Below, piece by piece: positions 5,002 through 9,028 of a stretch of 64,000 bases of DNA. The translations under genes and the position numbers were made by a program. This DNA comes from Sphingobacteriales bacterium UTBCD1. GTDB lineage: Bacteria; Bacteroidota; Bacteroidia; Chitinophagales; Chitinophagaceae. The stretch is taken from contig MWTC01000044.1 of NCBI GenBank assembly GCA_002066995.1, forward strand, positions 1 through 64,000, written 5' to 3'. Position 1 is the first letter of the stretch. Each line of letters starts with the position of its first letter. The notes beneath the pieces were generated by a model that was not told the DNA's origin, made no database searches, and saw only the letters and a list, made by a program, of their open reading frames with translations.

Positions 5002-6024
5002 TTATAATGTTTTAAAAGTATTTACTGTTTTCTCCACCATCTCTTTAGAAATATCCAGGTGCACAACCAGCCTCACCCTGTTGGGTGAAATGGCATAGCC
5101 AAGAATGTCATGTTCTTTGAGTTTTGCTACCAATGCCGGCGCAGATAAAGAATCGCTCAGTTCAAAAATGATGATATTGGTTTCTACCGGCAACACTTTT
5201 TTTACAAAGCTTTTTTTAGTTATTGATTCTGAAATCATCCTTGCATGTGCATGATCTTCTGAAAGGCGGTTAATGTTGTTTTTTAAAGCAAAAATGCCCG
5301 CTGCTGCAAGAAAACCGGCTTGCCTCATGCCGCCGCCGAATACTTTGCGTACTCTTCTTGCCTTTTTGATAAAATCTTTTTTTCCCAGCAACACACTTCC
5401 GACAGGGCAACCAAGACTTTTGCTAAGGCAGACGGAGATACTATCAAACAATTCGCCGTATTGCCTGGGCTTTTCTTTTTTTTCGACAAGCGCATTAAAA
5501 AGCCTTGCACCGTCCAGGTGAAATTTCAGATTATTGTTCCGGCACACTTTGCAGATTTGTTTTATTTCTTCAAAATCGTAACAACTGCCGCCGCCACGGT
5601 TAGAGGTATTTTCCAGGCAAACCAATGAACTGTGTGCCCGGTGTGGATCATCCGGATTTATAGCTGCAGAAACCTGGTCAGCCGTAATGCGCCCGAGGTT
5701 TCCGGGCAATAATTTTACAGAAGCGCCTGAATTGAATGCAATTCCGCCACCTTCATATTGATAAACATGAGCATTTTCATCGCAGATCACTTCATCTCCG
5801 GGCAGAGTATGGCATTTTATGGCTACCTGGTTGGTCATGGTACCCGAAGAACAAAAAAGCGCTGCTTCCATTCCAAACATTTCTGCTGCATATCTTTCCA
5901 ATTCATTTACAGAAGGGTCTTCTCCAAATACGTCATCACCCACCTGCGCTGACATCATTGCTTCCCGCATTGCAGGAGTTGGTTTTGTAACTGTATCTGA
6001 TCTGAAATCAATAGTCATTGTCAA
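5002..6024 (-). CDS. ltaE: Low-specificity L-threonine aldolase
   Basis: A 340-residue PLP enzyme splitting L-threonine or L-allo-threonine into glycine and acetaldehyde. It opens with the family start [12 protein letters not shown], followed by [10 protein letters not shown] and the segment [11 protein letters not shown]. The likely PLP-binding lysine is in [12 protein letters not shown] near residue 200. Two in-frame ATG codons (6024 and 6018) are equally possible starts. It is the first gene of an operon with pgi. No exact TAnnTTTG box was seen upstream on this strand. Confidence 0.93.
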
Positions 6025-6502
6025 ATTTTTTGCAATATACTCTCTTCAATAAATAAAAACTTTTTGATGCCATTTTCGCAACTCTCCGATCTCTTTGTTT
6101 CATACCCGGTAAAGTGCTCAGAAGGGTTTCATTAATTGTGATTTTCAAAACAGGTATGGAATAATTAATATTTAAAAGGTATGTACAGAACATAAAAATT
6201 ATTTGGAACAATACTCAATCCACAAATAAGATTCGCAGCAGCAATAGAACAGTGATTCAGTTTTTTTGTTCACGGATCAGAAAACATATTGCAAATAAAC
6301 CATTCATTTCAAATGACAGCCTTTCATCCCAAATAAAGTGGTAGCTGTAACCCTTTTTTAAAGGGAGCGTCAAACTTTTATCTGTGCTAACGGCCATTTA
6401 TCATTGATCCCGGCCGTTTAATTTAAAATACTGTACTATATAATATATAGTACTTAATTTTGAGCCGTAGTTTCTAAAGTATATAACCATAAAAAATAAA
6501 AA
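6025..6502. other. Gene-free 478-bp divergent intergenic region
   Basis: AT-rich, with no credible reading frame. It separates ltaE (minus) from an outer-membrane barrel gene (plus). It holds an inverted repeat of 7-bp arms, AACGGCC (6389-6395) and GGCCGTT (6412-6418), and the palindrome-containing promoter described at 6433-6462. Confidence 0.6.
6433..6462 (+). promoter_or_regulatory. Promoter with palindromic operator for the barrel gene
   Basis: TAATTTTG (6455-6462) is an exact -7 box, 40 bases before the ATG. Immediately upstream sits a perfect inverted repeat: GTACTATAT (6433-6441), spacer AAT, ATATAGTAC (6445-6453). It fills the spacer where RNA polymerase would bind, which is the position of a repressor operator. 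The binding protein is not known and no regulator gene is adjacent. Confidence 0.65.
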
Positions 6503-8962
6503 ATGAGAAAGATTTTCCTAATTATTGCTATTCTAATTGGCTCATTGCCAGTTGATAGCAGTGCTCAAACAACTGCAGGAAGAGTAATCGGAACAGTGAC
6601 TGATGGGGATGTGAAAACAGTAGAATCTGCAACGATAACCCTTTTAAAAGCCTCAGATTCCACCATTTCAAAGATGGGGGTAGCAGATAAGGCAGGCAAG
6701 TTTATAATGGAAGGCATTCCTTTTGGGAAGTACCTGGTGTTAGTCAGTGCGGTGGGCCACCAAAAGGGGTATTCAGATATGTTTGAGATCAGCGCTTCTA
6801 AACCGGAAGTTGAGTTAAGCGCTATTCAACTGAAGCAGGAAGAAAAATCTTTAAGAGCCGTGACCATTGTTTCCAGAAAACCACTGGTGGAACAGAAAGT
6901 GGACAGGACCGTTGTCAATGTGGATGCATCCATCACCAATGTGGGCAATTCAGCGCTTGAAGTTCTGGAAAAAGCGCCGGGAGTGTCCGTGGATAAAGAC
7001 GGCAATATTTCCTTAAAAGGAAAACAGGGAGTGCAGGTTTATTTAGATGGGCGTCCTTCTTATTTATCAGGGTCAGATCTTGCCAACATGCTTCGCAACA
7101 TGAATGCCAGTCAGTTGGATCAGATCGAGATCATGACCAACCCGCCTGCTCAATATGATGCTGCCGGCAATTCCGGGGTGATCAATATTAAGACAAAGAA
7201 GAACAAGCAGTTTGGTTATAACGGAAGTATAACTGCCGGATATGCCCAGTCATATTATTCAAGAGCAAATGGAAATTTTAATTTCAATTATCGCACCGGG
7301 AAGATCAATATTTTCAGCAACGTTGGTTATAATTACAGCGAGCGTCACCAGGTCCTTTATATGTACAGGAATTTCAGGGATGAAAATTCCAAGAATATAT
7401 TGTCCAGCCTGGATCAGGCGGCTTACATGAAATCTTCCAGTAAATACTTAAGTGCAAAAGCCGGGCTTGATTATTTTGTCAGTAAAAGAACCACAATGGG
7501 AATTGTAGTGAATGGTTATAACAATCCAACATTGTGGAAGAGCAACACGGATGCTTTCATTAAAGATTCAAACGGTTCTTTGATGAGCCAGACCAAAGCA
7601 TATTCTGAAAATGATCAAAAGACAAAGAACTTCAGTACTAATCTGAACTTCCGTACCCAGTTAGATTCTGCCGGACAAGAGATCAGTGCCAATCTTGACT
7701 ATATTCAATATAAGACAAGAACCGGTCAACCGCTTATCAGCAGTTATTATGATAAAACCGGCATACTGTTGAAAACACCGGACACACTGATGGGAAGCCT
7801 TCCTCAAAATATTAATGTCTATAGCGGCAAAATTGATTATACTCTTCCTTTAAAAAAAGGGGCAAAATTTGAAGCAGGTGTAAAAGCCAGTTATGTAAAA
7901 ACAGACAACGATGCCCGCTATGACAGCCTGTTAAACGGACAATCAATTCCGGATGCCAACAGGAGTAATCATTTCGTGTATGAAGAAAATATCAATGCTG
8001 CCTATCTTAATTATACAAGGCCATTGAGTAAAAAGTGGAGCGGTCAGGTCGGGCTGCGGTTTGAAAATACCGTTGCAAAAGGAAATCAGCTTACAACAGG
8101 AGAGACCTTCACAAGGAATTATTCGCAGCTTTTCCCGACTGCATATCTTCAATATGCTGCTAATGAAAAGAATCAGTTTGTGATTAATTACGGAAGAAGG
8201 ATACAAAGGCCTGACTATTCGGATCTGAATCCGTTCATTCTTTTCGTGGACCGGTACACCATTCAGACCGGAAATCCTGAACTGGCGCCTCAGTTCTCCA
8301 ATAACATTGAGCTGACTCATACATACAATAATTTTCTCAGCACTACATTGAATTACAGTGCTACCAAAAATATCATTCAGCAGGTGGTCGAGCAGGATGA
8401 AACTACCAACGAAGGCATTTTGAAGTACACTAATATTGCCAACATGCACCAGATCGGCATTTCTGTAAATGCATACAAACAAATTAATAGTTGGTGGAGC
8501 AGTAATGCGTATGTGAACGGATACAGCAATCATTTTAAAGGAATAGTGAATAATGATCTTATTTCCCTGGGAGTAACCGGGGTGATGGTGCAGTTGCAGG
8601 AACAATTCAAATGGGGTAAAGGATGGGGAGCGGAAGTAAGCGGTTTTTACAGAAGTAAGGGATTGGAAGGGGTGATCTATATAAGATCCATCACTAAAAT
8701 AGATGCCGGGTTCAGCAAGCAGGTCTTAAAGAACAAAGGAACGATAAAACTGAATTTCTCAGATATTTTGAACGGACTGAATATAAAAGGATATAGCAGA
8801 TATGGCGCTGTGGATTTTCATTTCAGGAATGATAACTATGCTCAGTCGGTGGGTATCAATTTCACCTGGAGGTTCAATAAAGGGAAATTAAAAGCGACCG
8901 GCAACGGCAGGGAAGGAAGCGCCACTGAAGAACTGCAGCGTATCAAAGGAGGAAATAATTGA
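6503..8962 (+). CDS. TonB-dependent receptor-like outer-membrane barrel protein (OMP_b-brl_3 type)
   Basis: 819 residues: signal peptide ending near SSAQ (residue 22), a carboxypeptidase-regulatory-like beta-sandwich at about 27-110 (GRVIGTVTDGD), a plug region at about 130-235 (LEKAPGVSVDKDGNISLKG, VYLDGRPSYLSG), and a C-terminal beta-barrel rich in alternating aromatic strands. This layout fits the outer-membrane beta-barrel family PF14905, which Bacteroidota use in large numbers for uptake or unknown envelope roles. No SusD partner is adjacent, so it is not a standard glycan-uptake pair. Control by the palindrome at 6433-6453 is likely. Confidence 0.88.
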   Translation: MRKIFLIIAILIGSLPVDSSAQTTAGRVIGTVTDGDVKTVESATITLLKASDSTISKMGVADKAGKFIMEGIPFGKYLVLVSAVGHQKGYSDMFEISASKPEVELSAIQLKQEEKSLRAVTIVSRKPLVEQKVDRTVVNVDASITNVGNSALEVLEKAPGVSVDKDGNISLKGKQGVQVYLDGRPSYLSGSDLANMLRNMNASQLDQIEIMTNPPAQYDAAGNSGVINIKTKKNKQFGYNGSITAGYAQSYYSRANGNFNFNYRTGKINIFSNVGYNYSERHQVLYMYRNFRDENSKNILSSLDQAAYMKSSSKYLSAKAGLDYFVSKRTTMGIVVNGYNNPTLWKSNTDAFIKDSNGSLMSQTKAYSENDQKTKNFSTNLNFRTQLDSAGQEISANLDYIQYKTRTGQPLISSYYDKTGILLKTPDTLMGSLPQNINVYSGKIDYTLPLKKGAKFEAGVKASYVKTDNDARYDSLLNGQSIPDANRSNHFVYEENINAAYLNYTRPLSKKWSGQVGLRFENTVAKGNQLTTGETFTRNYSQLFPTAYLQYAANEKNQFVINYGRRIQRPDYSDLNPFILFVDRYTIQTGNPELAPQFSNNIELTHTYNNFLSTTLNYSATKNIIQQVVEQDETTNEGILKYTNIANMHQIGISVNAYKQINSWWSSNAYVNGYSNHFKGIVNNDLISLGVTGVMVQLQEQFKWGKGWGAEVSGFYRSKGLEGVIYIRSITKIDAGFSKQVLKNKGTIKLNFSDILNGLNIKGYSRYGAVDFHFRNDNYAQSVGINFTWRFNKGKLKATGNGREGSATEELQRIKGGNN

Positions 8963-9028
8963 CATAGTCATAAGAAGTAAAGCCATAAAGAATACATAAT
9001 AACCGGGGTACTCTATTAAAAGCCGGAT

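Follow-up and report, generated by a model that had tools for sequence, protein, structure and literature searches.

Why should the gene of an outer-membrane beta-barrel protein carry a palindrome directly against its promoter, and which protein would bind there? The gene in question (6503-8962, forward strand; 819 amino acids; Pfam PF14905, E 7.5e-112) lies in the window, by which we mean the whole stretch of 64,000 nucleotides that was analyzed, and its product contains the Pfam domains CarboxypepD_reg, Plug and OMP_b-brl_3 / TonB_dep_Rec_b-barrel. The PF14905 barrel family is large and its function is mostly unknown. As an earlier note on this DNA had stated, no regulator gene adjoins the barrel gene: 5002-6024 on the reverse strand encodes what its sequence suggests is a threonine-aldolase-like protein, and the next long open reading frame (ORF) downstream begins at 9027.

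In the sequence of the window, the arm GTACTATAT (6433-6441) is followed by AAT and by the arm ATATAGTAC (6445-6453), and a single T at 6454 separates the palindrome from TAATTTTG (6455-6462, forward strand), an exact TAnnTTTG -7 box that is also seen in the orthologues and that leaves 40 bases to the barrel start codon at 6503. The arms, their 3-base spacer and the exact box one base further on were all found as the earlier note had described them. According to the accessible part of a study on flavobacteria, the sigma-A -7 box TAnnTTTG sits at -12 to -5 (PMC9723704); by this yardstick the palindrome would span approximately -34 to -14. On the basis of its sequence, its position in orthologues and the promoters of padR genes, the 21-bp palindrome GTACTATATAATATATAGTAC (6433-6453, no strand assigned) is a predicted PadR operator.

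The palindrome is not a chance occurrence. In the 3.76 Mb of G000, the window's own genome, the sequence given in the earlier note had no further place at up to 2 mismatches and three chance-like places at exactly 3 mismatches, while, with up to 3 mismatches allowed, dinucleotide shuffles of the window yielded 0.02 matches on average.

The barrel promoter in orthologues

The orthologue set comprised the 30 closest barrel matches (L050-L079), and since L057 has only 71 nt upstream, 29 could be evaluated. A site of at least 10/14 was present near the gene, at the same place, in 28 of these 29, and one of at least 12/14 in 20, in a table that credits L062 with a chance window at 13, the real L062 site scoring 11; L061 shows 9/14 at the place where the other orthologues have their sites. 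The exact TAnnTTTG stood exactly 1 nt after the palindrome in 24/29 orthologues, a count taken on position-locked columns and including L061, and a box-like sequence off the exact consensus was observed there in L058, L063, L065, L069 and L076. Among shuffled upstream regions, 0.1% reached at least 12/14, and 0.05% combined 10/14 with a box no more than 3 nt away. The footprint that the earlier note had proposed to look for in relatives is therefore kept, and the site was found both upstream of orthologues and near other promoters. Because ten promoters of the 40-row column profile (L019 and nine others) were picked for having the site, the profile serves to show what the site looks like and is no independent test; L057 and L061, both poor, are also among its rows.

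Beyond the closest matches, the site was present in 10 and absent in 6 of the 16 more divergent best-per-genome barrel matches. Two of the 34 named loci had no upstream sequence; the site was found in 26 of the other 32 (19 as the top match of the script, and 7 by eye from the printed context, where the script had instead settled on a chance window further downstream) and was absent in 6, three of which are 48-49% alike. The offset of the site to the -7 box was fixed in orthologues down to approximately 46% protein identity. Among 20 paralogue promoters (approximately 40% identity or less) none exceeded 10/14 and none had the box, and the site was absent from fifteen more non-best barrel copies. 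Tandem barrel paralogues were observed at G041:C294, G053:C16, G070:C4, G030:C6 and G011:C9, where the second copies (L203, L197, L234, L206 and L201) lack an operator of their own, as if they were co-transcribed or separately controlled.

These observations bear on the notion that an AT-rich inverted repeat has arisen here by chance, or that the palindrome forms a hairpin in a transcribed RNA, to which we give practically no credence. The sequence is indeed AT-rich, and a looser scan (14 letters, 2 mismatches) gave 13 places in G000 against 26 in the control; as the looser genus scans remained at or below control level, no further regulon members are named from them. Nevertheless, the orthologue footprint already contradicts a chance origin, given the fixed offset to the box and the failure of the shuffles and reversed controls to reproduce it, and a palindrome lying upstream of its -7 box would not be transcribed from this promoter.

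The earlier note had also pointed to a second inverted repeat at 6389-6418. Its arms, AACGGCC (6389-6395) and GGCCGTT (6412-6418), are present, but as an inverted repeat they are not conserved: the repeat is exact in 2/29 orthologous promoters, one of them the window's own. It was rejected as an operator and is better read as part of a direct repeat, made up of GCCATTTAT (6393-6401, forward strand), which is LytTR-like, and GCCGTTTAA (6413-6421, forward strand), which begins 11 bp after the end of the first and takes in the greater part of the inverted repeat's right arm. Both units are supported by column conservation and by the count of CC pairs: in 23/29 barrel promoters, pairs separated by 20 nt stood at constant positions within CCnTTnA repeats, vs 0.7% at other offsets. 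In the accessible text on LytTR activators, these bind two 9-bp repeats of the ACC..TTA. type just upstream of the -35 region, with a gap that is mostly 12 bp and sometimes 11 or 13 (PMC6193735); the repeats at 6393-6421, a candidate site of this kind, are alike in form and place, with 11 bp between them. Seven LytTR-domain matches (PF04397) were found in G000, none of them linked to the barrel. Elsewhere in G000 the direct repeat had two places at 1 mismatch (L264 and L270), both within coding ORFs, so no further target is claimed for it.

On the other side of the -7 box, CGTAGT (6466-6471, forward strand) is a degenerate copy of a TGTAAT element, recognized from its count in orthologues: TGTAAT at up to 1 mismatch was observed just after the box in 25/29. 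A GTAC was also seen approximately 30 nt after the palindrome in 16/29 barrel promoters.

Copies of the site in other genomes

When 196 relatives were searched with the original sequence at up to 1 mismatch, matches appeared in 5 genomes, its own included, and the looser form GTACTA-N-TAGTAC matched in 8 genomes. The 21-bp form stood upstream of a PadR-family gene at L005, L008, L011, L012 and L014 and upstream of a barrel gene at L009 and L019; the matches at L006 and L007 sit within unrelated coding ORFs. The exact pattern GTACTATGN5CATAGTAC was found in 69 places in 61 of the 244 genomes of the family, with none for the reversed control. Classified by the gene downstream, 45 of these places precede padR, 17 a member of the barrel family and 7 another gene; 60 of the places were classified together, and the remaining nine were matched to genes by coordinates. 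Copies near regulator genes, which the earlier note had suggested searching for, were thus abundant, with 45 exact copies upstream of one PadR-family gene. Within G000, no sites other than those of the barrel and padR are conspicuous.

Six of the 7 other places precede small proteins (L155, L156, L168, L169, L176 and L177) and one a 78-aa ORF (L158). The small proteins have approximately 140-170 amino acids and mostly signal-like starts, and their six promoters share with the barrel promoter the repeats, the palindrome, the box or a near-box, and TGTAAT. In the four small secreted proteins that were scanned, no Pfam family was found at the cut-off (best E 0.0022).

Another regulator, GntR/YtrA-like or of some other kind, might bind the palindrome in all these promoters, that of padR included. 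A related palindrome, GTGTACTA-N6-TAGTACAC, lies upstream of ABC-transporter genes at three loci from three relatives (L015, L016 and L017, near position 1501 in each), and we take it to resemble YtrA-type GntR operators. This class, however, has a 6-nt center and goes with different genes, whereas the class with a 9-nt center accompanies padR or the barrel in 62/69 places; furthermore, relatives as distant as class level still have the site with padR, as expected of autoregulation. We consider another regulator very improbable.

The PadR-family regulator and its own promoter

The PadR of G000 is encoded on contig 49 (G000:C49:57896-58243) and has 116 amino acids, the size of a PadR-2 protein. 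It matches PF03551 with an E of 2.1e-16, and it is the only protein that the search with this family found in G000; G001 and G002 likewise had a single match each. Taking the PadR-2 signature with two tyrosines from the accessible portion of PMC6457526, both signature tyrosines are apparently present by inspection, as Y29 and Y50. The protein therefore has, as far as inspection goes, the PadR-2 features of approximately 100 residues, a PadR winged helix-turn-helix and the two tyrosines. Its nearest solved chain is PDB 5h20 (E 2.4e-38, residues 1-106), which we take to be BF2549 of Bacteroides fragilis, a protein reportedly dealt with by Lee et al. 2017. At E 1e-15 or better, the PadR was present in 94/119 relatives; at E 1e-20 it was found in 46/198 genomes of the phylum, all of the same class.

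An ORF located 30 nt downstream of padR encodes a protein of 728 amino acids with a HAAS domain (PF22564, E 1.2e-7) and the domain order HAAS, two PspC stretches, LiaI-LiaF-TM_PspC and Toast-rack_PspC-Cterm. A HAAS/PspC relative adjoins padR in 30/30 loci of the class-level survey. A HAAS protein neighboring a standalone PadR defines the HAAS-PadR dyad, and, judged by sequence, padR and the 728-aa gene form the arrangement that Ravi et al. 2024 predict to be an envelope-stress dyad.

The site was also found in the promoter of padR itself. In 45 of 49 padR promoters it scored at least 11/14 within 500 nt, and in 32 of those 45 the box followed 11, 12 or 13 nt after the site, the exact TAnnTTTG not being recognized in the other 13. 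The four misses within 500 nt were L022, L034, L045 (10/14) and L096, and the L022 site was found further off, at -592. In G000 the padR site is GTACTGTGTTTTGTAGAGTAC at -66, a degenerate copy that scores 12/14 and departs from the 18-letter consensus at 3 positions; the controls in this genome also reach that level (2 forward, 1 reverse). With distance, a padR-promoter site of at least 11/14 was kept in 15/18 order-level relatives and in 8/22 class-level relatives outside the order; many of the class-level misses come from one family, f25, in which the promoter of padR may lie further upstream. The barrel link was surveyed within the family and in a few more distant genomes.

An inverted repeat thus stands in the promoters of both padR and the proposed target barrel, as in a PadR regulon. 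The suggestion of the earlier note, that the palindrome could be a regulon site for a PadR-like protein encoded elsewhere, is supported, and the regulator can be named, because the same 21-bp palindrome recurs in padR promoters, in degenerate form in that of contig 49, the PadR is the sole PF03551 protein found in the genome, and it has its dyad partner. Some genomes depart from this pairing. G011 (99% complete) has a barrel site of 12/14 (L072) and no orthologous PadR, its only PadR being a different one, 39% alike; in G003 and G050 (82-83% complete) the barrel site is present and no orthologous PadR was found. The L072 barrel of G011 shows the full promoter layout, and a PadR match was obtained in its congener G110.

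The distance from the site to the box, 11-13 nt at padR and 1 nt at the barrel, differs by about one helical turn. As read from these offsets, the predicted operator covers the spacer between -33 and -7 at the barrel and the -33 region at padR, and both placements would suit steric repression. Alternatively, PadR might bind the site and activate the barrel in the fashion of MerR, by twisting the spacer of a promoter without a good -33 box. MerR operators lie between the -33 and -7 regions, as this palindrome does, and no TTTG -33 box was seen upstream of it. Against this stand the site of the padR promoter, one turn further up and over the -33 region, the existence of a separate activator-like repeat, and the fact that the PadR-2 proteins in the accessible parts of PMC6624303, PMC6457526 and PMC4534193 are repressors. 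Activation of this kind appears unlikely to us.

A proposed envelope circuit and its relation to known systems

Very likely, to judge from the sequences compared, a small repressor that is produced together with an inner-membrane stress sensor docks on the palindrome, so the outer membrane is probably tied to an inner-membrane stress circuit. Under this model, 6433-6453 would be the operator of the HAAS-linked PadR encoded on contig 49, and a PadR dimer would cover the stretch between -33 and -7 and exclude RNA polymerase from the barrel promoter. In its own promoter, which precedes padR and the haas-pspC-toastrack genes, the same PadR would also cover the -33 region and therefore repress itself. 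The HAAS/PspC/LiaF-TM/Toastrack protein of the inner membrane would sense envelope stress and change or sequester PadR, freeing both promoters, and a LytTR-type activator on the 6393-6421 repeats would supply positive control of the barrel. The site, its geometry and conservation, the identity of the regulator and its operon partner are read from the sequence; binding, repression, the signal and the activator are steps that we infer. Taken as a whole, the model of operator repression of the barrel, self-repression of PadR, release by the HAAS protein and LytTR-type activation is one that we hold with good confidence.

The predicted PadR operator and its small regulon are well supported as something new of a known kind. 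A wider proposal is that the HAAS-PadR dyad of Chitinophagaceae constitutes a cross-envelope circuit, in which the PspC/Toastrack sensor would free PadR from a dual-input promoter (LytTR repeats with an embedded PadR operator) that drives the barrel and also, in certain genera, small secreted proteins; for this proposal we see an even balance of chances. If true, it would provide the first operator and distant target for a HAAS-PadR dyad within the literature searched, and it would connect, in an unusual way, a stress sensor of the inner membrane with a protein of the outer membrane. HAAS-PadR pairs are predicted to stand in for two-component systems when the envelope is under stress, and with a conserved operator and defined targets this prediction can be tested directly. 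The results suggest that Bacteroidota couple the status of the inner membrane to the make-up of the outer membrane. No described PadR regulon of Bacteroidota with these targets was recognized in the literature searched, which covered few subscription papers, and for PadR with PspC, Chitinophaga or HAAS the PSP survey alone was relevant by title.

In that survey, the HAAS-PadR system (theme (i)) is proposed to sense membrane signals and to act through PadR, its role in envelope stress being a prediction (Ravi et al. 2024, PMC11237479, in its accessible sections). The same sections give neither an operator nor a distant target for the dyad, whereas the present analysis proposes an operator motif and a target in the outer membrane. 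In the portions available of the respective papers, Listeria PadR proteins repress genes of membrane proteins, and some are autoregulatory (Hauf et al. 2019, PMC6624303), LftR has a binding site in front of its own gene (PMC6457526), and LmrR binds its own promoter and that of a target (PMC4534193). LmrR and LftR resemble the contig-49 PadR in having approximately 110 residues and a palindromic operator, the likeness being one of size and operator form. As those texts present them, the targets of LmrR and LftR are multidrug transporters, whereas the target proposed here is an outer-membrane barrel.
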